Assembly: GCA_946405645.1 (NCBI GenBank)
Contig: CAMJHW010000041.1
Span: 1 to 10,882 of the forward strand
Direction: 5' to 3'
Length of the DNA stretch: 10,882 nt
Source: an uncultured Bacteroidales bacterium
Lineage (GTDB): Bacteria; Bacteroidota; Bacteroidia; Bacteroidales; UBA932
Below are positions 1-10,175 of this stretch, one piece after another. The position numbers and the translations under genes are program-made. The notes under the pieces are model-generated. The model was not told the origin of the DNA, did not search any database, and saw only the letters and a program-made list of their open reading frames with translations. How positions within the stretch are numbered: position 1 is the first letter of the stretch; every line of letters begins with the position of its first letter.

Positions 1-1510
1 CGTACATCTGTCCGAGGACCTCGAGGGCGGGGATGCCGTCGACGAGTACCAGACGATAGACGGTGTCATCGACCTTGTAGTACTCGACTCCGTTGAGTAC
101 GATCGTGTCGTAGTCATCCGGAAGTTCGTTGACCAGAGCTCCTGCAGGAGGTACGATGACCTCGTAGCGGTTCCTCTTGGTGGCGACGTAGAAGACGCCG
201 TCCTCATAGAAGTACTCGGTGTTGATGTTCGCGAAGCTCTGGACAAGTCCGAGGGCGGAAGCGATCTCATAGGCCGAGAGGGCTCTGTTGGAGTTCAGCG
301 CAAGCGCCGAATTCTGCGTTGCGAGCAGGGCGTTGTTCCGGGCGATCTCCCGGTTCTGCTCCAGGATGGTCCTGTAGTTACTGTCGATGATATCGAACGT
401 GCGATATACATTGTGGTAGTACGAGAACCTCACGGAAGCGAAAGCCATGTCGCGCAGTGCGATGTCGATCATCACTCCGAAGGGAGGACGTGTGATCACG
501 TACCAGTTGCCGTAGCGGAGGTAATAGACATTGTTGTAGAAGTAGTAGTCCCTGCCCCAGTGGGAGATCCTGCGGTATCTCGGAGGAAGGGCCTGCACCC
601 TGTATCCGAAGAAGTGAGGATCGTGTCCGTAGAAGGCTCCGGGCCTGTCGTAGATGATGAAATCACGCTCACGGGGAGGGATGCGGTTCAGATTCCTGCC
701 GTCATCCATCCGGATGCCGCCGCGATCTTCGCGGCCGGTGGAATAGTTGACATTGGGAACGGCGCCTCTGTTGTTGGAGGCAGCTCCTCCGCGGGTGACG
801 TTCGCTCTGGCTGCGGAGGCCTCCGGAGCGGAGGTCAGGCCAGTGCTGGTCGTCGCATTGGTGGTGGAGCGAACGGTCCTGACGGGAGTGCCGTTCTGAG
901 CAGTGGGGGCGGTAGCCGCACCGGTGTTGGCGGAGCGGGCAGTGGTCGTCGCCCTTCTGGAAGGAGTCTCGTTGGTGGCAGCGGCATTGCCCGCGGAGCG
1001 GGTGGCTCCGGTCGCCTGCCTTGCGGCAGTGCTCTCGGAAGCGGTGGTGCCGGTGCTGCGACGGGCGGCGGTACCGGTGTTGCCGGTATTGCCGTTGGTG
1101 TTGCGGTTCACCTGGGACCCGGTGTTGTTGCCGGTCGTACCGCGGTTAACCTGGCTGCTGGAATTGCTTCCGGTAGTGGTGCTGCGGCGGACCTGGGTGG
1201 AAGTGCTGCCCGAAGGGGCTGCTGTATTCCTCGTGGCCGTGCTGCTCTGACGGGCAGGCGCGGCAGTGGAAGTGCTCTGGCGATTGGTGGTAGTACCTGC
1301 GCTACGCGTAGCAGTGGCAGTGCTTCTGGAAGCAGCGGAGCTGGAAGAAGCGGCGCTTCTGCTGGCGGTGGCGTTGGACTTGTTATCGGAAGAGCTGGAA
1401 GTGGAAGTCGTAGTGGTGCTACGTCTTGCCTGGGCGTTGAGCTCAGGCGCTGCAGCGGCGAGGGTGAAAACCAGGACGCTGGCAAGTGCGATTTTGAATG
1501 TGGTTCTCAT
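1..1510 (-). CDS. Secreted Ser/Thr/Asn-rich DUF6515-type protein (3' end cut off)
   Basis: Reading from the ATG at 1510-1508, 503 codons stay open to the left edge, so the C-terminus is missing. Residues 1-26 are a Sec signal peptide (MRTTFKIALA then a hydrophobic stretch ending PELNA). Residues about 29-245 are low complexity, rich in Ser, Thr, Asn, Ala and regularly spaced Arg. From about residue 264 the protein looks folded and rich in Tyr and Pro. It has two related modules: HWGRDYYFYNNVYYLRYGNW followed by YVITRPPFG near residues 304-345, and FYVATKRNRYEVIVPPAG followed by LVNELPDDY and GVEYYKVDDTVY near 428-503. The pattern 'aromatic - x - Val - x - Pro-Pro - x - Gly ... LP ... GVEYY' is what I know from the DUF6515 family of secreted Bacteroidota proteins, whose function is unknown. 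The start is 26 bases after the NamZ-like stop, so it may be the last cotranscribed gene. An envelope or surface role is inferred. Confidence 0.8.
   Translation of the reverse strand, partial: MRTTFKIALASVLVFTLAAAAPELNAQARRSTTTTSTSSSSDNKSNATASRSAASSSSAASRSTATATRSAGTTTNRQSTSTAAPARQSSTATRNTAAPSGSTSTQVRRSTTTGSNSSSQVNRGTTGNNTGSQVNRNTNGNTGNTGTAARRSTGTTASESTAARQATGATRSAGNAAATNETPSRRATTTARSANTGAATAPTAQNGTPVRTVRSTTNATTSTGLTSAPEASAARANVTRGGAASNNRGAVPNVNYSTGREDRGGIRMDDGRNLNRIPPRERDFIIYDRPGAFYGHDPHFFGYRVQALPPRYRRISHWGRDYYFYNNVYYLRYGNWYVITRPPFGVMIDIALRDMAFASVRFSYYHNVYRTFDIIDSNYRTILEQNREIARNNALLATQNSALALNSNRALSAYEIASALGLVQSFANINTEYFYEDGVFYVATKRNRYEVIVPPAGALVNELPDDYDTIVLNGVEYYKVDDTVYRLVLVDGIPALEVLGQMY
776..1426 (-). 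repeat. Degenerate Ser/Thr/Asn/Arg repeat region inside the DUF6515-type gene
   Basis: This stretch encodes about residues 29-245 of the secreted protein. Short motifs recur imperfectly: RRST (about residues 29, 124 and 163 by position in the reading), TRSAG (twice), SQVNR (twice, after TQVRR) and ARQ. Arginines recur about every 8-15 residues in a Ser/Thr/Asn background. It looks like an extended, possibly O-glycosylated or wall-associated linker. Codon choice leaves the opposite strand free of stops over long distances and creates spurious Gly/Ala/Val-rich reading frames there. Confidence 0.7.
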
Positions 1511-1536: not shown

Positions 1537-2820
1537 TCATTCGTACATATAGTACTTTTTCGAAAGATCCTTGAAAGCTTCGGTGTTTTCGAACCATACG
1601 GTTCTCAAGTCCTGGGCTTTGAAGCTCTTCTCAAAAGCCACCCTTGCACAATCCGTACCACAAACGCGGTCGAAGGTGGAAATCTTGCCTTGTACGAATG
1701 GATTGCGCCCCGGAAACAGCTCGTGGAGGGCCTGCAGGACATAAAACTGCACCATCGTCAATTCCGCTTTTTCATAGTCCGTGAAGTAATATTGTACTCC
1801 GTGGAGAAGCTTTCCGGAGTCGGATCCGGATGTCGGCTTGTAGTGAATGGTCCGGAACGAGACTCCCGGAACATCATACGAATCGAGCCGCGACTTAAGC
1901 GCGTCGGCGTCGATCCATTCGGCGGCGAAGCAGCCGAACGGGAGCGTATAGCCGACACCTATGTTCACGAAGCCCAACTCGCCGAGTATCCCGGCGGCAG
2001 GGTATCCCTGCGCGCTCTGGGGATACGGGATGTTGGGCGACGGGAGCACCCACGGCAGACCGGTATCCATAAAGGTCATGTTCCGGTGCCATCCTTCCAT
2101 CGGGACTACGGTGAGCTTGCATCTCACGTGCGGGAGCTTGCCATTCTCTCCGCGGTTAAGTCCCTCTTCGTTGATCAGTGTCGCAAGCTCCCCTACCGTC
2201 AGTCCATAGACATAGGGGATATGGAACTGGCTGATGAAGGAATAGTACCCGTCCTCGACCGGACAGCCCTCGACCTTGAGCCCGCCGAGCGGATTGGGGC
2301 GGTCGAGGACGACGACCTCGACCCCCTGCTCGGCGCAGGCGCGCATCAGCAGGCCGAGCGAACTGATGAACGTATATGACCTGGTGCCGACATCCTGTAT
2401 GTCGTACACCACGGCGTCCAGCCCCTTGAGCATCTCGGCAGTGGGCGTGCGCGTGCTGCCGTAGAGCGAACGTACGGGGAGGCCGGTGGCCTCGTCGACA
2501 GAGTCGCTGAGTTTGCCGCCGGCATATACGTCGCCGCGGACGCCGTGCTCCGGTGCAAACAGTACCTTGAGCTCGACGTCGGGGGCGGCGAAAAGGATAT
2601 CGACCGTAGACCTGAGGTTACGGTCGATACCGCTTGGATTGGTGAGCAGGCCAACCTTCTTGCCTCGGAGACATTCGAAGCCGGAACGTTCGAGCACCTC
2701 TACTCCCGGGATCACTTCCCGGGAGTCCTCCGGAGCCGGAGGGGGTGTGCTCGAAACGCCCCGGGCGCAAGCGCCCAGGGCTATAAGAAGTACGGCCAGG
2801 CCAAAGGTCAGCCTTTTCAT
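1537..2820 (-). CDS. namZ: NamZ-like exo-beta-N-acetylmuramidase lipoprotein (DUF1343, GH171)
   Basis: This 427-residue lipoprotein has a signal peptide with lipobox ALGAC (lipidated Cys18). Family members remove MurNAc from the non-reducing ends of peptidoglycan fragments outside the cytoplasm. DUF1343 hallmarks appear in order: GKKVGLLTNPSG (53-64), VLFAPEHGVRG (86-96, with Glu91 in the PEHG motif the likely catalytic acid), YDIQDVGTRSYT (139-150), VLDRPNPLGG (171-180) and LPSPNIPYP (259-267). Length is normal for the family. The later motif reads NIGVGYTLPFG (286-296), whereas many relatives have a GRGT...PFE form, so it may belong to a divergent subfamily. It follows the esterase gene by 24 bases. 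Its neighbours, an AmpG-like importer and a SpoIID-type domain, fit peptidoglycan breakdown. The family call is secure. The gene symbol is by family, and the exact substrate is inferred. Confidence 0.88.
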   Translation of the reverse strand: MKRLTFGLAVLLIALGACARGVSSTPPPAPEDSREVIPGVEVLERSGFECLRGKKVGLLTNPSGIDRNLRSTVDILFAAPDVELKVLFAPEHGVRGDVYAGGKLSDSVDEATGLPVRSLYGSTRTPTAEMLKGLDAVVYDIQDVGTRSYTFISSLGLLMRACAEQGVEVVVLDRPNPLGGLKVEGCPVEDGYYSFISQFHIPYVYGLTVGELATLINEEGLNRGENGKLPHVRCKLTVVPMEGWHRNMTFMDTGLPWVLPSPNIPYPQSAQGYPAAGILGELGFVNIGVGYTLPFGCFAAEWIDADALKSRLDSYDVPGVSFRTIHYKPTSGSDSGKLLHGVQYYFTDYEKAELTMVQFYVLQALHELFPGRNPFVQGKISTFDRVCGTDCARVAFEKSFKAQDLRTVWFENTEAFKDLSKKYYMYE

Positions 2821-2844: not shown

Positions 2845-4395
2845 TTAGTAACCGAGCTCGGTGACGGGCTGACCCATCTCGGAAGCCTCGGCATCGTTGG
2901 CGTCGAGCTTGAAGATCATGAAGTTGTTGTTCTCCTTGGTGCAGGGAGTCCACTCGCCTCCGTTAGGGCCGTTAGGATCGCTGTACTTTGCGAAGTTGGT
3001 CCAGGCGGTAAGCATCTTCTCGGAGAGATCCCAGTCGCCCTGGGTCCAAGGACGCCAGCCATGCTGGAGGGACTTGAAGACATACCAGAGATCGGAGGAG
3101 TGGAAGGCGCCCTTCAGGCGGACAGTGACCTCGGGGTGGGAACCGTCGTCCGGGAGCGGACGGGCGAACTCGTAAGCCCAGGCCTTGTTGCCCTTCTCCT
3201 GACGGTTCTCGCAGAATGCGACGACGCCGGCGGCCATATTGCCCATATCGTTCATGGTGTAGCCGATCATGTAAGGAACATCGGCGAGGGTGCCGTCAAG
3301 GGCGGCGGCGTCGAAGCTCTCCTTGGAAACATAGCCGTCCACGAGAGGACTGCCGCTGAGGCTCTCACGGTTGCCGGTAGCGGAAGCATAGATGGCTCCG
3401 ATGGAGTGGATGACCTCGGTATCGGCAGCACGCATCTTCTCGAGGGTGTTGTAACCACCCCAGTCGAGGACGACCTTGCTGTTGAACTCGGCACGCTGGA
3501 AGGCGGTCAGGCCTTCAGGAGCGACGGGAGCCTTGTAAGGAGCGAGCTTGGGCTCGGGCTGTGCGCCGGGGAATCCCATCATAGGGAAGCCACCGCGGCC
3601 GCCACGGCCGGCTGCAGCATTGGCGTTGGGAACGGTGAGGCCGCCGGCGCTCATGATGACAGCCTTGTGGAAGAGGCCGCGGGCGAGAGGAGACTCGCAG
3701 AGGGTGCGGACAGCACCGCCGCCGGCGCTCTGGCCGAAGATCATGACGTTGTTCGGGTCACCGCCGAACTGCTCGACATTCTTCTGGATCCACTTGAGGG
3801 CCTGGATCATGTCGAGGATACCATAGTTTCCGGAGACGCCGTTGGGACTTTCAGCGGAGAGGAGAGGATGGGCCATGAAGCCATAGACACCGAGACGATA
3901 GTTGATGGAGACGAGGACGACGTCCTTGCCTGCCCACTCCTGGGCATCAAACTCGGGCTCGGTACCGAAGCCTTCGCGGTAGCCGCCGCCATGGATCCAG
4001 AGTGCGACAGGAAGCTTGGCTCCGGTGTTGCCCGGCTGCTTCGTCCACACGTTCACATAAAGGCAGTCCTCGCTGAAAGGGGCCTCGTCGCCGTATCCCC
4101 ACTCAGTGTAGTAGCCACCCTTGTACTGGATGTGCTGATAACTGGGGTTGCCGAAGCGCTTGGCGAGATACACGCCATCCCAAGGAACTACCGGCTGGGG
4201 AGCTTTCCAGCGATTCTCCCTGATCGGGGGTGCGGCATAAGGGATACCGCGGAACACGAACACGTCCTTGACATTGTCAGCCAAGACGCCCTGAACCTGG
4301 CCGCCTTCGATGGTGAGGACGGGGCTCAGCTTTTCCTGGGTCCGGCAGCCGGCCAACAGGGCCAGCACTCCGGCGAGCAACAATAATTTTTTCAT
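2845..4395 (-). CDS. Type-B carboxylesterase family lipoprotein
   Basis: A 516-residue alpha/beta hydrolase of the carboxylesterase type B family (PF00135), with lipobox LLAGC (Cys17) placing it on a membrane facing the periplasm or cell surface. Family marks: FRGIPYAAPP (48-57), SEDCLYVNVW (108-117), oxyanion-hole WIHGGGY (133-139), nucleophile elbow FGQSAGG with Ser223, and the His region GAFHSSDLWYVF with His432. The usual acid site NxDEG is replaced by GYTMNDMG, leaving Asp383 as the likely acid. A Gly/Met/Pro-rich insertion follows the nucleophile elbow at about residues 255-294. Its ATG overlaps the permease stop by 4 bases, so translation is probably coupled. Substrate is unknown. In this operon, deacylation or de-esterification of a wall or dietary polymer is possible, but that is inference. 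Confidence 0.88.
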   Translation of the reverse strand: MKKLLLLAGVLALLAGCRTQEKLSPVLTIEGGQVQGVLADNVKDVFVFRGIPYAAPPIRENRWKAPQPVVPWDGVYLAKRFGNPSYQHIQYKGGYYTEWGYGDEAPFSEDCLYVNVWTKQPGNTGAKLPVALWIHGGGYREGFGTEPEFDAQEWAGKDVVLVSINYRLGVYGFMAHPLLSAESPNGVSGNYGILDMIQALKWIQKNVEQFGGDPNNVMIFGQSAGGGAVRTLCESPLARGLFHKAVIMSAGGLTVPNANAAAGRGGRGGFPMMGFPGAQPEPKLAPYKAPVAPEGLTAFQRAEFNSKVVLDWGGYNTLEKMRAADTEVIHSIGAIYASATGNRESLSGSPLVDGYVSKESFDAAALDGTLADVPYMIGYTMNDMGNMAAGVVAFCENRQEKGNKAWAYEFARPLPDDGSHPEVTVRLKGAFHSSDLWYVFKSLQHGWRPWTQGDWDLSEKMLTAWTNFAKYSDPNGPNGGEWTPCTKENNNFMIFKLDANDAEASEMGQPVTELGY

Positions 4396-5687
4396 AACTT
4401 TTTAGAGTTTTTGTTTATGGGGTTATTGGTATAAAGTAGTATCTTGTTGCGGGCGATGGCGGCTGCCAGGAACGTACCAAGGCAGGACACCATCACGAGC
4501 GTGAAGAATCCGACATAGCCGAGCCATTGCTGCAGGTAGCCCGCCACGAGGGCCGGGAGCTTCATCGACAGCCACATGAAGGCCGTGCATATGGCATAAT
4601 GCGAAGTCTTCAACGGACCGTCCACGAACTGCATCATGAACAGCGTGTAAGCCGTGAAGCCGAACCCATAGCCGAACTGGTCCAGCACGATCATCGAGCC
4701 TATCGTCCAGACGCTGGCCGGACGGAATATGGCCATCAGCAGATAGACGGCACAAGGCAAGGCAAGGGACAGGGCCATCGGCCACATGGCCTTCCTCAAG
4801 CCATAGCGTGATGCATAAAGGCCTCCGAGGATGCCGCCGAGAAGCAGAGCCACGACTCCGAAGGTACCGTAAACCAGACCGTACATTTCCGTTCCGGCAT
4901 TCAGCCCCCCTACCTCTGCCCCGTCCTTGAAGAACGGATATAACAGATTCAGGGACAATGCCTCCGGCAAGCGGAACAAGAGCATGAACGCAATAGCCCA
5001 CCACACGCCTTTCTTAAGGAAGAAGGAACGGAAGGACTCGGCGAACTCTGCCCATATCTGCGCCGAGGAGCGTGCGTCACGCCGGTCGGTGTCTTCATCC
5101 GCTTTCGGAAGTTTGAAAGTATGGTAGATTGCAATGAGCGCCAGCAGGACTGCCGAAATCAGCAGAACAGTACCCCAGGCGCGAGGTATGTCGCCGGAAC
5201 GCTTCTGGAGTAAGCCTCCAAGCATGACCAGCAGGCCCTGTCCGAGGACGAGGCCGCCGCGGTAGAAAGTATTGCGGATGCCCACGAACGAAGACTGCCG
5301 CTGCCTGTCGAGGGCAAGCATGTAGTAGCCGTCGGCGGATATGTCGTGCGTAGCTGACGCAAACGCCACCAGTACGAACAGTATGAGCAGCATGGTCATG
5401 GTGCAGAAAGGCAGGCAGAAGGCTATCAGAGCCAGCAGGACCGTCATCGTGAACTGCGTCAGGAGGATCCACCAGCGCTTGCTGCGGAAGATGTCCATGA
5501 ACGGACTCCAGAGAGGCTTGATAAGCCAGGGAATGCTGATGAGAGTGGTGAGCGGGCCGAGCGTACCGTTGTCCACGCCCATATCCTTGAACACCGCCAA
5601 CGCTATGGTGTTGACGATGGCATAAGGAAGCCCCTCCACCAGATACAGTGTCGGGACCCAGAGCCATGGAGTGCGTGTATTGCTCAT
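4392..5687 (-). CDS. AmpG-like MFS permease (putative muropeptide importer)
   Basis: A 431-residue inner-membrane transporter with twelve hydrophobic segments by eye, in a 6+6 arrangement separated by a charged loop near residues 191-227. The N-terminus PTLYLVEGLPYAIVNT, the motif ASATHDISADGY near residues 109-120 (compare the 'QDI..DAY' motif of AmpG) and QFGYGFGFTAYTLFMM in the second half are typical of the AmpG/acetyl-CoA transporter branch of the major facilitator superfamily. AmpG imports GlcNAc-anhydroMurNAc peptides from the periplasm. The lysosomal and acetyl-CoA relatives mean substrate cannot be assigned from family alone. The start overlaps the stop of the DUF4922-SpoIID gene by 4 bases and the stop overlaps the esterase start by 4 bases, so it sits in the middle of the operon. 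Its neighbours NamZ and SpoIID support a muropeptide or amino-sugar cargo. Confidence 0.82.
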   Translation of the reverse strand: MSNTRTPWLWVPTLYLVEGLPYAIVNTIALAVFKDMGVDNGTLGPLTTLISIPWLIKPLWSPFMDIFRSKRWWILLTQFTMTVLLALIAFCLPFCTMTMLLILFVLVAFASATHDISADGYYMLALDRQRQSSFVGIRNTFYRGGLVLGQGLLVMLGGLLQKRSGDIPRAWGTVLLISAVLLALIAIYHTFKLPKADEDTDRRDARSSAQIWAEFAESFRSFFLKKGVWWAIAFMLLFRLPEALSLNLLYPFFKDGAEVGGLNAGTEMYGLVYGTFGVVALLLGGILGGLYASRYGLRKAMWPMALSLALPCAVYLLMAIFRPASVWTIGSMIVLDQFGYGFGFTAYTLFMMQFVDGPLKTSHYAICTAFMWLSMKLPALVAGYLQQWLGYVGFFTLVMVSCLGTFLAAAIARNKILLYTNNPINKNSKKL

Positions 5688-7900
5688 ATCCTTTCCAAAT
5701 CAGCACCGGGATAATAATGTCCCAGTATTTCCTTGTATCCATAACCTTTGAAGGACATCACGGCCGCGCCGATCTGGCAGAGGCCAACGCCGTGGCCCCA
5801 GCCGCGGCCCCTCAGGATCACCTCGTCATCCTGCCATTCCACATCGAACGCAGAACTCTTGAGGTGGCTTTCGGACAGCATCCTTCTTATCATCAATTCC
5901 TTTCCTATGACCATGGTGCGGGCGGAGCCCACCACCTTGAGGCGGCTGATGCGGCCTGAAGGTCCCCGTTCCACGGGGACAAGGTCGCGTACCTCGCCGA
6001 ACACGATGCCGGTACGGCGGCTGACCAGCTCCGAGAGCGGGGCCCGTCCGTACCGGACTTCCCATCTGTAGAAGTCCTTGGTCTCAAGGTCATAGTCGTT
6101 GAGCACCTGGGAGAGGATGGCCTCGTCCGCGGTGTCGCAAAAACAATGTCCCGCAGGATCCTCTCCCGGAGTGTCCGGGAGCGCCTGCAGGTAGGGATAG
6201 TCGCGATCCTCCCAGCAAGTGGAAAAACGCTCCATCATTCCGCCGCAGCACTTGGAGAAGCGCGCGTCGCAAATCTTTCCGTCATATTCCAACACCTGGC
6301 CCCAGGTCTCGTCCACGGCTTTCCGGACGTTCTCCCCCACTGCATTTGTCAGGCCCTGATAGCGCTGGCAATGGTCGTCGGCGCAGACGTCGAACAGCTT
6401 GTGGTCGTCGTGGTCCCACCAGTGGATCAACTCGCCGGGGGCCTGGGGCAGTTTCACTGCTCCCGCCCCGTCATTCCCGCGCAAGCGGTTCTCAATCTGC
6501 GAGAGCACCCACGAGCGGGATATGACCGCATGGGCTTTCAGGAACTCGAGCGATGCCGAGGCCTTCATTTCCGAGGAAATGACGCTGACGAGATAATCCT
6601 CGATGCCGACGCGGTTCACCGCGGTGACCTTGCCGTCCTCCACTATGAACTTGAGCGAACCGGCGAAGGTCTGGTCCTGCTTCCTCTGCCAATGGAAATC
6701 AACCCCGATGGTCACTCCGTAAAGGATGAAGGAAGGCTCGGAGAAAAGGGTCGATCGGGTAACCGCTTCGAAAACTAGTTCGTCATAGAGCACGCCGCCG
6801 TAGTCGATCTTGCCATCCTTGAAGCGCACCGTTTGCGGACCGGCTCCGTCGGAAATGATCTCGAAACGGATCTCCTCCGCGGACATTATACCGACTTCGA
6901 CCTTTCGCTGGCGGCGCTTGAGGCGCCAGACGATGTCGCGTTCCGCCTCGGGGCGGACGGCGGCTTCGTCGAGCAGCCCTGCCAGCAGGCGTGAGTCGAG
7001 TTTGGCATAATCGCCGGGGTCGGGGACGATGAGCCATCCCGCCACGTCGGCGCATCCCGGGGCCATCGTAAGATGGTCGGGGCCGTCGCTGTAAAAATGA
7101 TGCGTGCGATGCCTCTCGCGCAGCACGACGATGGCGCGGTACTCCGCTCCGTCATGCCATACGAAGAGGTTGAACTTCGGTTCCTTCTCCCCTTCCGCCA
7201 AGGGAACACTTTCGAGCAAGCGGTAGAAGAGCTTGCCCACCGACTTGGGAGTACGGCCGCGAAGGGCGAACACCCCACGCATAAAATGCTTGTAGTGATA
7301 GACTATTGCTTCCTGCACGCGGGTAAGGTATTCCATGTCGCCGTCCAGGTCGTAATGGACGTCGTCCAGGCCTTCCTCGCGGATGCGGTCCAGAAGGCCG
7401 TCTACAGCCTTCTCCAAAGGCAGCATGCCCCTGGGGCAAGTCTGGAAATGGAGATGCTCGGGAGCGGAAGCCCCGCTCCCGGGGCCATTATAGAATATAG
7501 TATAGCCCGCGAGGGAACGCGCCATGTCCAGCATGTCCACGAAATGATGCCAGATGGACTGGGGCAGGTGACGCTCGGAAGCGATTACCAGATGGCGGGG
7601 GAATATGGGATAAGGATTGATCTGTATGCGGTACTTGCGGCCCTTACGTCCTTCGAAGGGAAGGGTCATCTGTTCCGGAGGAAGGTTCTCGCGGCAGAGG
7701 AAGCAGGGAGCGTCCTTGAAGGCGTCCGCATCAGTGCCGGCGACGGCGGAAGCCATTCGGGCGGGGTTGTGCTGGAGCACGACCTCCAGACCTCCCGCCT
7801 CCAGCCGCCGCATAGACGCGGACTTCAGCCCGCGGAAACGGGCGGACACTTCCGGCCATACCGACAACTGGTCATTTATGAACTTCTCAACCTCCGGCAT
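5684..7900 (-). CDS. DUF4922 (GalT/HIT-like) - SpoIID/LytB fusion protein
   Basis: A 738-residue two-part protein with no signal peptide or membrane segment, so predicted cytoplasmic. Residues about 20-340 resemble DUF4922 and GalT/GDP-hexose phosphorylase members of the HIT superfamily. CFLCREN gives Cys66 and Cys69. IQINPYPIFPRHLVIASERH gives His111. FYNGPGSGASAPEHLHFQ gives His149-x-His151-x-Gln153. By analogy with GalT, Cys66, Cys69, His111 and His149 would bind zinc and His151 would be the nucleotidylated nucleophile. Residues about 395-738 match SpoIID/LytB: GIEDYLVSVISSEM with Glu444 at the catalytic position of these lytic transglycosylases, FLKAHAVISRSWV, a Cys/His cluster (His500, Cys506, His510, Cys511, Cys551, Cys552, Cys562) and GRGWGHGVGLCQIGA near the end. 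It begins 3 bases after the Nudix stop and overlaps the permease start. Both domain calls are firm. Joint function and cellular location are inferred. Confidence 0.85.
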   Translation of the reverse strand: MPEVEKFINDQLSVWPEVSARFRGLKSASMRRLEAGGLEVVLQHNPARMASAVAGTDADAFKDAPCFLCRENLPPEQMTLPFEGRKGRKYRIQINPYPIFPRHLVIASERHLPQSIWHHFVDMLDMARSLAGYTIFYNGPGSGASAPEHLHFQTCPRGMLPLEKAVDGLLDRIREEGLDDVHYDLDGDMEYLTRVQEAIVYHYKHFMRGVFALRGRTPKSVGKLFYRLLESVPLAEGEKEPKFNLFVWHDGAEYRAIVVLRERHRTHHFYSDGPDHLTMAPGCADVAGWLIVPDPGDYAKLDSRLLAGLLDEAAVRPEAERDIVWRLKRRQRKVEVGIMSAEEIRFEIISDGAGPQTVRFKDGKIDYGGVLYDELVFEAVTRSTLFSEPSFILYGVTIGVDFHWQRKQDQTFAGSLKFIVEDGKVTAVNRVGIEDYLVSVISSEMKASASLEFLKAHAVISRSWVLSQIENRLRGNDGAGAVKLPQAPGELIHWWDHDDHKLFDVCADDHCQRYQGLTNAVGENVRKAVDETWGQVLEYDGKICDARFSKCCGGMMERFSTCWEDRDYPYLQALPDTPGEDPAGHCFCDTADEAILSQVLNDYDLETKDFYRWEVRYGRAPLSELVSRRTGIVFGEVRDLVPVERGPSGRISRLKVVGSARTMVIGKELMIRRMLSESHLKSSAFDVEWQDDEVILRGRGWGHGVGLCQIGAAVMSFKGYGYKEILGHYYPGADLERI

Positions 7901-7903
7901 AAC

Positions 7904-8485
7904 TCACAACAGCGATTCAAGTGTCTGGCGTATCATCCGGAACTCCTGTTCGAAGTTGGGGGTGAATACGTCGTGGGACATATGGGCTTCTATATCGGGG
8001 AAAGGCCAGAAACGGCCTTCCGTCACTTCTTCTTTGTTCGGGAACAGCTCGAAATTGCCTACGGCGGCGAATACGTTGACCAGCTCCTTCTCCACCTGGG
8101 ACTCGAACACATAGGATGTCACTGACACCGGATTGAAATCATAGAACCCCAGTTCCTCCCCCGCTTCGCGGAAAAGGGCTTCGATTATACTCTCGCCATA
8201 GCTTACGTGACCGCCTACCGCAGTATCCCAGTACCCCGGAAGCAGGTCCTTGGTCATAGCGCGCTTCTGCAGGTACAGCTCGCAGCTACGGTTCAGGATA
8301 TGGAGATGGACGACAGGATGGAGCGGTTTCTCTCCCCCGTGGCACCATCCGCGTGAAGCCTGTCCCAGCACGGCCCCATGCGTGTCCACGATGGGGACCA
8401 TCTCCGAAGCGGAGACGTCGGACAGTTCGGACTGACGCTGAAGGATCGGTGCGGGAGCGCCCACGGGATATACAAGCTCGATCAT
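7904..8485 (-). CDS. Nudix hydrolase (IDI/YfcD-like)
   Basis: A 193-residue cytoplasmic Nudix protein. The Nudix box is complete at residues 92-114: Gly92, Glu98 and REAGEELGF (106-114) fit GX5EX7REUXEEXGU, with Ala in the aliphatic position. Ahead of the box, LHPVVHLHILN and the GYWDTAVGGH stretch resemble the branch containing isopentenyl-diphosphate isomerase and YfcD, whose members often have unassigned substrates. A longer reading frame opens at 8620, but its first 45 codons lie inside the preceding gene and look out of place. I chose the ATG at 8485-8483 because it overlaps the preceding TGA as ATGA and starts a sensible MIELVYPVG sequence. Hydrolysis of a nucleoside diphosphate or related compound is likely. 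Its placement next to a nucleotidyltransferase-like gene hints that the two share a metabolite, but that is only a guess. Confidence 0.87.
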   Translation of the reverse strand: MIELVYPVGAPAPILQRQSELSDVSASEMVPIVDTHGAVLGQASRGWCHGGEKPLHPVVHLHILNRSCELYLQKRAMTKDLLPGYWDTAVGGHVSYGESIIEALFREAGEELGFYDFNPVSVTSYVFESQVEKELVNVFAAVGNFELFPNKEEVTEGRFWPFPDIEAHMSHDVFTPNFEQEFRMIRQTLESLL

Positions 8486-9300
8486 ATCTGACGTATAATA
8501 TCCAGCTCTTCTTGAGTATATAGGATGGAATCGACAAAATCCGGGGCGATGCGGGCCAGTACAGCAAATGACGCCAGCAGCAGCACTGCCGCTCCCAGGA
8601 CTGACGCCGCGACTATCCACCAGCGGCGTCCCTTGCGCGGAGCGGCCTCCGGCAGGACCTCCACGACCTTCGCAATCTCCTCAACCTTCTTCTCCTCGAT
8701 AGCAGGCTCCTCTTCAACCGCCGGCGTTTCTTCAGCAACGGGCATCTCCTCAATCACCGGCTTTTCCTCTACAGCCGGTTTCTCTTCGGCAACAGGATTC
8801 TCTTCGACGGCCGGTGCCGGTTCGTCGAAAATCTGATGGAGCGATGCCACCGCCGCCTCCACGTCGTCCTCTGTCTCTACATGAGTCTTGAGGGACAACG
8901 GCTCGAGACCGAACCCTTCCGGATAGATATTGAGATCTTCATCGGGGATGAAGAAGAAATTGTTCTCGCGTGTGGCCCTGAGGCGGCCTAGTCCCGGGAA
9001 GACGATGGTCTTCCTGGACTTCAGGGTGTCCTTCAACTCTGCCAGATATGCCCCCAGGATCGACGCGGCGACGCGCTCGTCGACGCCGTTGGATCGCGCA
9101 TAAAGCGCGACCAGCCGGCCGTCCGATGACTCGCGCTGGCGGAATGAAAGCCTCCGGTACGGAGGATTGATGGTATAACCTTTATCGGAAAAAGTGGAGG
9201 GTACGACTTCAGCGACGAAAGTACCGACACCCGGCAGTGACACCTCGTCATTGTCCAGGATCAACTCCCCAACCATCTTTGCCAGGAGGTCTATATCCAT
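8482..9300 (-). CDS. Membrane-anchored protein with paired HU-CCDC81-like domains
   Basis: A 272-residue protein, first gene of the operon. Residues 1-55 (LILDNDEVSLPGVGTF ... INPPYRRLSF) look like the first prokaryotic HU-CCDC81 domain, and about 60-138 (ILGAYLAELKDTLKSR, VFPGLGRLRA) like the second. Both belong to the HU/IHF DNA-binding fold. Residues about 165-208 are a Glu/Pro/Val repeat, followed by a basic patch RKGRR (222-226) and one membrane span (about 228-249). A tail of some 22 residues ends in IIRQI. Known Bacteroidota relatives often place a periplasmic SPOR domain after the span; none is present here. The positive-inside rule puts the HU domains in the cytoplasm. A link between nucleoid, or another ligand, and the envelope is inferred. 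The ATG at 9300-9298 is the only sensible start and lies about 35-40 bases from the predicted transcript start. Confidence 0.8.
   Translation of the reverse strand: MDIDLLAKMVGELILDNDEVSLPGVGTFVAEVVPSTFSDKGYTINPPYRRLSFRQRESSDGRLVALYARSNGVDERVAASILGAYLAELKDTLKSRKTIVFPGLGRLRATRENNFFFIPDEDLNIYPEGFGLEPLSLKTHVETEDDVEAAVASLHQIFDEPAPAVEENPVAEEKPAVEEKPVIEEMPVAEETPAVEEEPAIEEKKVEEIAKVVEVLPEAAPRKGRRWWIVAASVLGAAVLLLASFAVLARIAPDFVDSILYTQEELDIIRQI
8677..8808 (-). repeat. Glu/Pro/Val-rich imperfect repeat in the HU-like gene
   Basis: The region encodes about residues 165-208, made of roughly six to seven repeats of five to six residues on the pattern V-x-E-E-x-P (VEENP, AEEKP, VEEKP, IEEMP, AEETP, VEEEP, IEEKK). 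Protein phasing is regular while the DNA copies are diverged. It probably forms a stiff, acidic linker between the HU domains and the membrane span. Copy number may vary between strains. Confidence 0.8.
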
Positions 9301-9671: not shown

Positions 9672-10175
9672 ATGAAAAAACTTGTAACCTTAGCCGTACT
9701 TGCGGCAATGGCTTTCTGCTCTTGTACGAAGGACAATGAAAAGATTTATACCCTTGAAGAGATAGGAAAGTTGGGGATTAGTATAGACTTGGCATACTGC
9801 GGATGGAGCGAAGTCTATAATGACACGAAGGAGACGGTCACCCTCATTACTTCTTATCCAATGCCGGACAGGCATGAACCTGTCACTTCCGTCATCAAAC
9901 CGGGTGAATTCGTAAAGCTTATGAATGGAGTAATGCTTTATGGTAAATCCATCGACGAGTGCAATACTGCCTCCATCATTCTCGGCGACGGTACCGAAAT
10001 ACTGTGCTCTCAAAAAAGGGACGATAACTGGTCGCAGTATTTCTTCGAGAATTTCGACCAAAGGGTCGAACCTGAAATCACTATAGCCTTCGATAAAAAA
10101 GTCCGCATCGACCATATCGTAAAGACATACCATATAGACGATGCGCTCATTGAAATCGGAAAGGCTAAACAATAA
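9672..10175 (+). CDS. Small putative lipoprotein, family not recognised
   Basis: A 167-residue protein with a clear lipoprotein signal (MKKLVTLAVLAAMAFCSC). Cys18 is the likely lipidated residue, although the lipobox FCSC is less typical than usual. TKDNEK follows directly, an acidic/polar stretch resembling the surface-export signal of Bacteroidota lipoproteins. The mature part is about 150 residues, looks soluble and probably rich in beta strands, and has Cys at 43, 97 and 112. I do not recognise a family. The gene is visibly richer in A+T than the operon to its left, lies alone on the plus strand after a tRNA, and is convergent with the isomerase gene 24 bases away. Transfer or a lineage-specific origin is possible. 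A 160-codon antisense frame covers almost the same bases but lacks any sensible protein features. Confidence 0.8.
   Translation: MKKLVTLAVLAAMAFCSCTKDNEKIYTLEEIGKLGISIDLAYCGWSEVYNDTKETVTLITSYPMPDRHEPVTSVIKPGEFVKLMNGVMLYGKSIDECNTASIILGDGTEILCSQKRDDNWSQYFFENFDQRVEPEITIAFDKKVRIDHIVKTYHIDDALIEIGKAKQ

Follow-up and report, generated by a model that had tools for sequence, protein, structure and literature searches.

Lytic transglycosylase-type domains, such as the SpoIID domain, are regarded as enzymes of the cell envelope. Here we describe a version that lacks a recognizable leader and is fused to a domain resembling nucleotide-processing enzymes (DUF4922) in a single protein, encoded in a stretch of 10,882 nucleotides from an uncultured member of the Bacteroidales (contig CAMJHW010000041.1 of assembly GCA_946405645.1; the whole stretch is called the window below). 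The Bacteroidota, to which this organism belongs, are a dominant gut phylum. The known SpoIIDs cut denuded glycan strands at C1 of N-acetylmuramic acid (MurNAc), giving 1,6-anhydro-MurNAc (PMC6221140; this and the other papers are cited here from excerpts). In the version from Clostridioides difficile (5i1t/5txu) a set of His and Cys residues binds zinc (PMC6221140); that protein has its role in sporulation, outside the cytoplasm, whereas the protein from the window is leaderless and fused. The SpoIID of Waddlia chondrophila shares the domain and acts like a muramidase on denuded strands, yielding mainly non-anhydro products, but it is predicted to be periplasmic and septal (PMC6635528).

A further parallel is offered by the ampG operon of Tannerella forsythia (Tanf_08345-08385), for which a figure legend gives the gene order gtf, gtf, lytB, ampG, ybbC (PMC5388701). 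This equals the order of family 2 glycosyltransferase (GT2), DUF4922, SpoIID, AmpG and NamZ genes in Bacteroides, the comparison being drawn from that legend; lytB is named there as an amidase enhancer precursor (PMC5388701). The T. forsythia AmpG, which is 27% identical to its Escherichia coli counterpart and whose function was tested by its authors (PMC5388701, PMC7670621), imports N-acetylglucosamine (GlcNAc)-anhydro-MurNAc and GlcNAc-MurNAc, and these fragments sustain growth of the organism, whereas anhydro-MurNAc does so poorly (PMC7670621). According to the same excerpt, no AnmK is predicted in T. forsythia, and the authors regard how the fragments are processed as an open question (PMC7670621). 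MurNAc kinases flank the T. forsythia scavenging operon on both sides (PMC10465942). In our own homologue search, Dysgonomonas and Prevotella names were found among the best 120 matches and Tannerella was not.

The fusion from the window is a single open reading frame (ORF) that starts with MPEVEKFIND and has zero internal stops. Its parts are the following:

5684..7900, minus strand: DUF4922-SpoIID fusion of 738 amino acids, from the ORF, Pfam and the alignment of relatives
6953..7900, minus strand: two-lobed Apa2/GalT-like (HIT superfamily) nucleotidyltransferase or phosphorylase, residues 1-316, as predicted by a structure model
5687..6916, minus strand: leaderless zinc-type SpoIID domain, residues 329-738, as predicted by the same means

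Pfam recognizes both halves above cut-off, DUF4922 (PF16269) at residues 7-155 (165 bits against 23.6) and SpoIID (PF08486) at residues 422-539 (85.5 bits against 23). The SpoIID half also exceeds the cut-off of TIGR02669 (179.6 bits against 83.3) and misses that of the sporulation SpoIID equivalog TIGR02870 (143.5 bits against 234.75). Structure modeling, which the earlier note on this sequence had suggested, gave residues 1-316 a two-lobed fold like that of the Ap4A phosphorylase Apa2, and this fold together with the HxHxQ motif places the half in the HIT/GalT superfamily; residues 329-738 were given the SpoIID fold, with the SpoIID part beginning near residue 329. The closest known proteins to the DUF4922 half are yeast Apa2 (4i5t) and the Arabidopsis ADP-glucose phosphorylase (2h39); the version in the window has a conserved CxxC and conserved His residues, and the Ap4A phosphorylase family PF19327 (Ap4A_phos_N) matches it below cut-off (18.0 bits against 23.1).

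A protein homologue search scored 8000 candidates, 7914 of them at E <= 0.001. The loci discussed below are the best 80 of 578 relatives from a genome scan, and all counts out of 80 describe these only; their labels name the Bacteroidales, the Bacteroidia or taxa (genera and families) inside these groups, except for one labeled only as uncultured bacterium. The two-domain DUF4922-SpoIID protein is found in 51 of these loci, and a further 23, of Prevotella types, encode GT2-DUF4922-SpoIID as one ORF of 1200-1321 amino acids. The remaining six (Dysgonomonas, Bacteroides sp., B. clarus, P. pallens, B. oleiciplenus and Muribaculaceae) have adjacent separate genes. Thus, the earlier note was right that this is a true fusion in a continuous frame, as seen from the Pfam matches to both halves and from relatives with a single ORF, and the search across relatives that it had proposed found the architecture to recur; an assembly or frame artefact was considered and rejected, as both domains lie in one ORF in 74/80 loci. 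The fusion is a genuine and intact protein, and it is common among Bacteroidales.

The fusion also makes up two of the three parts of a module, the third being a tandem GT2; these components are neighboring genes in Bacteroides and Dysgonomonas and one protein in the Prevotella types. The structure model of the B. clarus GT2 (488 amino acids) shows a tandem GT-A protein resembling the chondroitin polymerase of E. coli K4 (2z86; Foldseek E 6.5e-21), and in the Prevotella-type triple proteins the Pfam match to GT2 is confined to the latter half of the GT2 part. There is no GT2 gene in the window, and this third regular partner was out of sight for the earlier note. A GT2 of the module type is adjacent or fused in 52/80 loci, and the 28 without it include the nearest relative of the window (L010). 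Loss of GT2 in the lineage of the window was considered and rejected for the nearest relative (G001), which carries it on another contig (C4:270771-272183). Among 20 genomes lacking GT2 at the locus, a strong match elsewhere was seen in 17 and none in three (G214, G215 and G220), and all five controls with a local GT2 match. In two genomes GT2 and DUF4922 are separated by a GNAT acetyltransferase gene (L125, 9620-10141, minus strand; L191, 7088-7627, plus strand), and one contig (C140 of G052) bears a second, broken GT2 copy with one TAG, along with DUF4922 fragments. Downstream, an AmpG-like gene comes next in 72/80 loci, three more loci end at a contig edge and five are without it; NamZ lies further along in 48/80. 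BadF-type kinases are neighbors in nine loci (Pfam was run on two of these).

We then compared the SpoIID half with other SpoIIDs from 198 genomes drawn evenly from Bacteroidota, which is also the phylum of B. clarus. PF08486 matches 64 places in 56 of these genomes, and a profile of the SpoIID half from the window splits the SpoIIDs into a leaderless group (405-498 bits for 26 full-length proteins) and a leadered group (74-160 bits). All leader calls are based on hydrophobicity. A first test, the peak hydrophobicity within the N-terminal 45 residues, was dropped because ORF extensions and hydrophobic domain strands made the groups overlap, and was replaced by the number of residues preceding the first domain strand. 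By this measure, 24 of 27 leaderless SpoIIDs (B. clarus added) have just 7-11 residues ahead of that strand, the other three being longer ORFs, two of them with a likely internal start, whereas 35/35 leadered SpoIIDs have a hydrophobic stretch ahead of the domain. A 36th leadered protein (from G185), which lies outside the profile matches and was read separately, has a clear leader and no zinc motif. Leaderless SpoIIDs are also richer in cysteines (median of 7 versus 4). One leaderless gene (G193; L135, 6590-7915) is interrupted, with pieces of 149 and 278 amino acids and one TAG according to the PF08486 search.

The fusion from the window shows no signal peptide or membrane anchor by hydrophobicity, in agreement with the earlier note, and its DUF4922 domain begins at the protein start. 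That note had also held that relatives with separate genes and a signal peptide on the SpoIID half would speak against its idea; separate genes do exist (Bacteroides, Dysgonomonas, Muribaculaceae and Prevotella pallens), but hydrophobicity revealed no signal peptide on the separately encoded SpoIIDs. Hence, we infer that the fusion is cytoplasmic.

Both halves retain the residues expected of active enzymes in the earlier note, at the positions where it had placed them; the last entry, GHGVGLCQ, is added here:

7694..7705, minus strand: C66xxC69, kept in 28/28 DUF4922 proteins
7568..7570, minus strand: H111, kept in 28/28 DUF4922 proteins
7442..7456, minus strand: H149xH151xQ153, a HIT/GalT-type motif aligning with DHKHLQ of Apa2, both His kept in 28/28 and Gln in 27/28
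6569..6571, minus strand: E444, the catalytic glutamate position of SpoIID, kept in 27/27 leaderless and 34/34 leadered SpoIIDs
6368..6403, minus strand: zinc-type loop H500-x5-C506-x3-H510-C511, in 26/26 leaderless and 0/35 leadered SpoIIDs
5774..5797, minus strand: GHGVGLCQ of the SpoIID core, residues 702-709, with C708 being Cys in only 19/34 leadered SpoIIDs

The SpoIID alignments of 27 rows leave out the interrupted gene of G193, and the leadered comparison uses 34 of 35 ORFs (one of 1167 amino acids is left out). We take the C66xxC69 pair to be the GalT-type zinc ligands. C66, C69, H111, H149, H151, Q153, E444, H500, C506, H510 and C511 are invariant in 31/31 aligned fused proteins, the window included, and in a phylum-wide alignment of 28 DUF4922 and 27 SpoIID proteins all eleven are again invariant except Q153 (27/28). 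In particular, substitution of E444 or H151 across the family, named beforehand as evidence against the idea of the earlier note, was seen in none (27/27 and 28/28 retain them, respectively). For the zinc motif we relied on visual reading of the sequences, as the HMMER alignment of that loop is shifted; so read, the likeness to the C. difficile zinc site noticed earlier holds at the level of sequence, with H-x5-C-x3-HC in the fusion versus H-x5-C-x4-HC in C. difficile. In the automatic alignment, the core common to leaderless and leadered SpoIIDs consists of E444, R462, Q512, GG553-554, R672 and GHGxGxxQ, whereas W464, D509, R513, D545, R547, K550, G666, H679, I710, A713 and V714, among others, are constant in the leaderless SpoIIDs and present in at most 1/34 leadered ones. 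Therefore, the catalytic core of SpoIID is retained, and its surroundings have been remodeled. Besides being leaderless and fused, the SpoIID of the window departs from the C. difficile enzyme in having clade-specific residues such as W464, D545, R547, K550, G666, H679 and I710, which stand out by comparison with Bacteroidota SpoIIDs.

Across the 198 genomes, DUF4922 is carried by 28 (three weak partial matches among the 31 listed, in G032, G165 and G141 at E 8e-6 to 9e-4, are left out), and its distribution is closely tied to that of the other components. SpoIID (PF08486) occurs in 28/28 carriers versus 28/170 other genomes, GT2 (at E 1e-60) in 27/28 versus 0/170, and an AmpG-like gene (at E 1e-20) in 28/28 versus 36/170; in the one carrier without GT2 (G161), a contig end lies no more than about 2.2 kb from DUF4922. 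In many carriers the AmpG-like matches lie in open frames of 600-646 amino acids, the usual length being 430. AnmK (PF03702) shows the opposite trend, with 10/28 carriers versus 126/170 others (p 1.2e-4; kinship ignored) and, among the genomes with AmpG, 10/28 with the module versus 35/36 without it (p 5.5e-8; kinship ignored). When genomes with a partial AmpG match in a long frame are left out (eight carriers and one noncarrier, G140), the figures are 5/20 and 34/35. MurQ, used as a control, is not depleted (21/28 carriers versus 120/170 others), and 11 of the 12 genomes with MurQ and no AnmK carry the module.

The same pattern is seen in a second set of 119 genomes from the order, which shares one genome with the first and in which carriers were called by DUF4922 only. 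AmpG is present in 26/26 carriers versus 10/93 others, and AnmK in 3/26 versus 78/93 (p 1.1e-11; kinship ignored), or 3/26 versus 8/10 when genomes with AmpG are compared. In a third set, the genomes of 50 of the 80 loci, AnmK is present in eight and absent from the nearest relative of the window (G001). When AnmK is mapped onto a tree of the carriers (28 genomes), seven changes are required, at least six of them on well-supported branches, and its absence is therefore recurrent. Further, the AmpG start lies within 6 kb of AnmK in eight genomes, none of which carries the module.

Taking these findings together, we propose a cytoplasmic module for muropeptide salvage, providing an AnmK-independent route for anhydro-MurNAc fragments, a reading to which we give about half of our confidence. 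It would comprise three enzymes, namely the tandem GT2, an Apa2/GalT-like phosphorylase or transferase (DUF4922) and the leaderless zinc-type SpoIID, and its substrate would be cell wall sugar fragments imported by AmpG. The SpoIID half would most likely cleave or open the MurNAc C1 bond of imported anhydro-MurNAc or GlcNAc-anhydro-MurNAc, and MurNAc could then return to metabolism without the kinase AnmK. By analogy, opening of the anhydro ring or splitting of imported fragments is in principle conceivable for an enzyme that forms or hydrolyzes the MurNAc C1 bond. The module would thereby share with AnmK the proposed metabolic position, the reentry of anhydro-MurNAc after AmpG; it belongs to an unrelated family with a different chemistry, and AnmK is scarcer among AmpG genomes where the module is present. 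The companion sugar, or a form of it activated by a nucleotide, would be the concern of the Apa2-like half and GT2. The substrate, the direction of the reaction and the roles of the two nucleotide enzymes are predictions, and those of GT2 and the Apa2-like half are guesses, the boldest being that they split or make GlcNAc-MurNAc via a nucleoside diphosphate (NDP)-sugar. In an extension that we regard as tentative and rather doubtful, SpoIID might run lytic transglycosylase chemistry backwards on anhydro-MurNAc, with water, phosphate or a sugar as the acceptor, while GT2 and the Apa2-like phosphorylase split or rebuild GlcNAc-MurNAc via an NDP-sugar, the whole taking the place of NagZ and AnmK in a phosphorolytic and energy-saving manner. 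The earlier note had already suggested that the protein processes imported muropeptides; of this, the link to AmpG has stood (next door in 72/80 loci and present in 28/28 and 26/26 carriers), and the processing itself stays a prediction, as does the passing of a sugar product to a nucleotide-dependent step.

Several points weigh against AnmK-independent salvage. We know of no activity for any family member of the module, GT2 and the Apa2-like partner would be superfluous for simple ring opening, and SpoIID cleaves MurNAc-GlcNAc, a bond absent from the GlcNAc-MurNAc disaccharide. The AmpG assignment is affected in that 8/28 carriers have as their only match a partial one, which spans approximately positions 157-413 of 417 and lies in a frame of 600-626 amino acids, and that the TIGR00901 AmpG cut-off is reached in 0/198 genomes. 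As for AnmK, it occurs together with the module in 10/28, 3/26 and 8/50 genomes, some of its changes on the carrier tree could be gains, and the comparison ignores phylogeny across the module-free genomes and takes no account of genome completeness. The orthology of T. forsythia lytB is drawn from gene order in a figure legend only. Finally, in 13 distant Bacteroidota loci a GT4-type gene lies beside a leaderless SpoIID (e.g., L136, 8190-9308; Pfam was run on this locus only), a pairing that suits a synthetic role.

Such a role is the first alternative to be weighed: GT2 (GT4 in some lineages) and an Apa2/GalT-like enzyme supplying NDP-sugar would build a cytoplasmic glycan or glycolipid, with SpoIID as a transglycosylase or trimming enzyme. 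Besides those 13 pairs, it draws on GT2 being the tightest partner and on the modeled likeness of GT2 to chondroitin polymerase, and an export system may be present among the neighbors, only few of which are identified by family. The AmpG-like genes in all 28 carriers and next door in most loci, the BadF-type kinase and NamZ neighbors (among the few neighbors assigned to families) and the anticorrelation with AnmK all argue against it, and we consider it unlikely, although a serious contender. Still less probable is a cytoplasmic SpoIID half whose muramidase or lytic transglycosylase activity is limited to shortening longer imported denuded glycans to disaccharides, the absence of AnmK being coincidental. 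This would agree with the known SpoIID specificity for MurNAc-GlcNAc in denuded strands (PMC6221140) and with the core active site shared with exported SpoIIDs, but disaccharides are already reported as substrates of the T. forsythia AmpG (PMC7670621), AnmK is repeatedly absent in lineages with the module and absent in only 1/36 module-free AmpG genomes, and the GT2 and DUF4922 partners would be left unexplained. An unrecognized route of the SpoIID half into the periplasm, where it would be an ordinary peptidoglycan cutter, might be suggested by the exported look of the 36 leadered SpoIIDs from the same sample. It is very improbable given that this half shares one chain with a nucleotide enzyme in 74/80 loci (with GT2 added in 23), has no leader where it is encoded separately and belongs to the cysteine-rich group.

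Our searches of open-licence PMC papers brought up none on a cytoplasmic SpoIID, a DUF4922-linked SpoIID or a bacterial DUF4922, the two papers met for DUF4922 being on plants; the parts belong to known families, and the cellular location, the fusion and the recurrent partnership appear new within the literature searched. Leaderless SpoIIDs forming a large and conserved clade, linked with a glycosyltransferase, an Apa2-like enzyme and AmpG, would alter the picture of peptidoglycan recycling in Bacteroidota. If salvage is indeed its function, the module is a testable candidate for the AnmK-independent use of anhydro-MurNAc left open in T. forsythia (PMC7670621), and the absence of AnmK should not be taken as absence of recycling.

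The remaining genes recognized in the window around the fusion are as follows:

4392..5687, minus strand: AmpG-like major facilitator superfamily transporter (TIGR00901, 173 bits, below the cut-off of 350), its start overlapping the stop of the fusion
2845..4395, minus strand: carboxylesterase (PF00135) between AmpG and NamZ
1537..2820, minus strand: NamZ exo-beta-N-acetylmuramidase (PF07075, 273 bits), with a lipoprotein-type N-terminus judged by eye
7904..8620, minus strand: NUDIX hydrolase (PF00293) directly upstream of the fusion

A scan for promoters and terminators gave nothing exceeding chance, and no Pfam family matched a lipoprotein-like ORF at 9672-10175 (plus strand). The NUDIX gene ends at 7904, next to the upstream edge of the fusion at 7900; such a gene lies directly upstream of the fusion in 25/80 loci, all 25 of which belong to the 28 without a local GT2. 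Among the loci scanned, the carboxylesterase at 2845-4395 between AmpG and NamZ was matched in L010 only. Following NamZ, a DUF6515 protein with a low-complexity region rich in Ser, Thr, Asn and Ala is encoded at 2-1510 (minus strand), and it occupies this place in many loci of the lineage.

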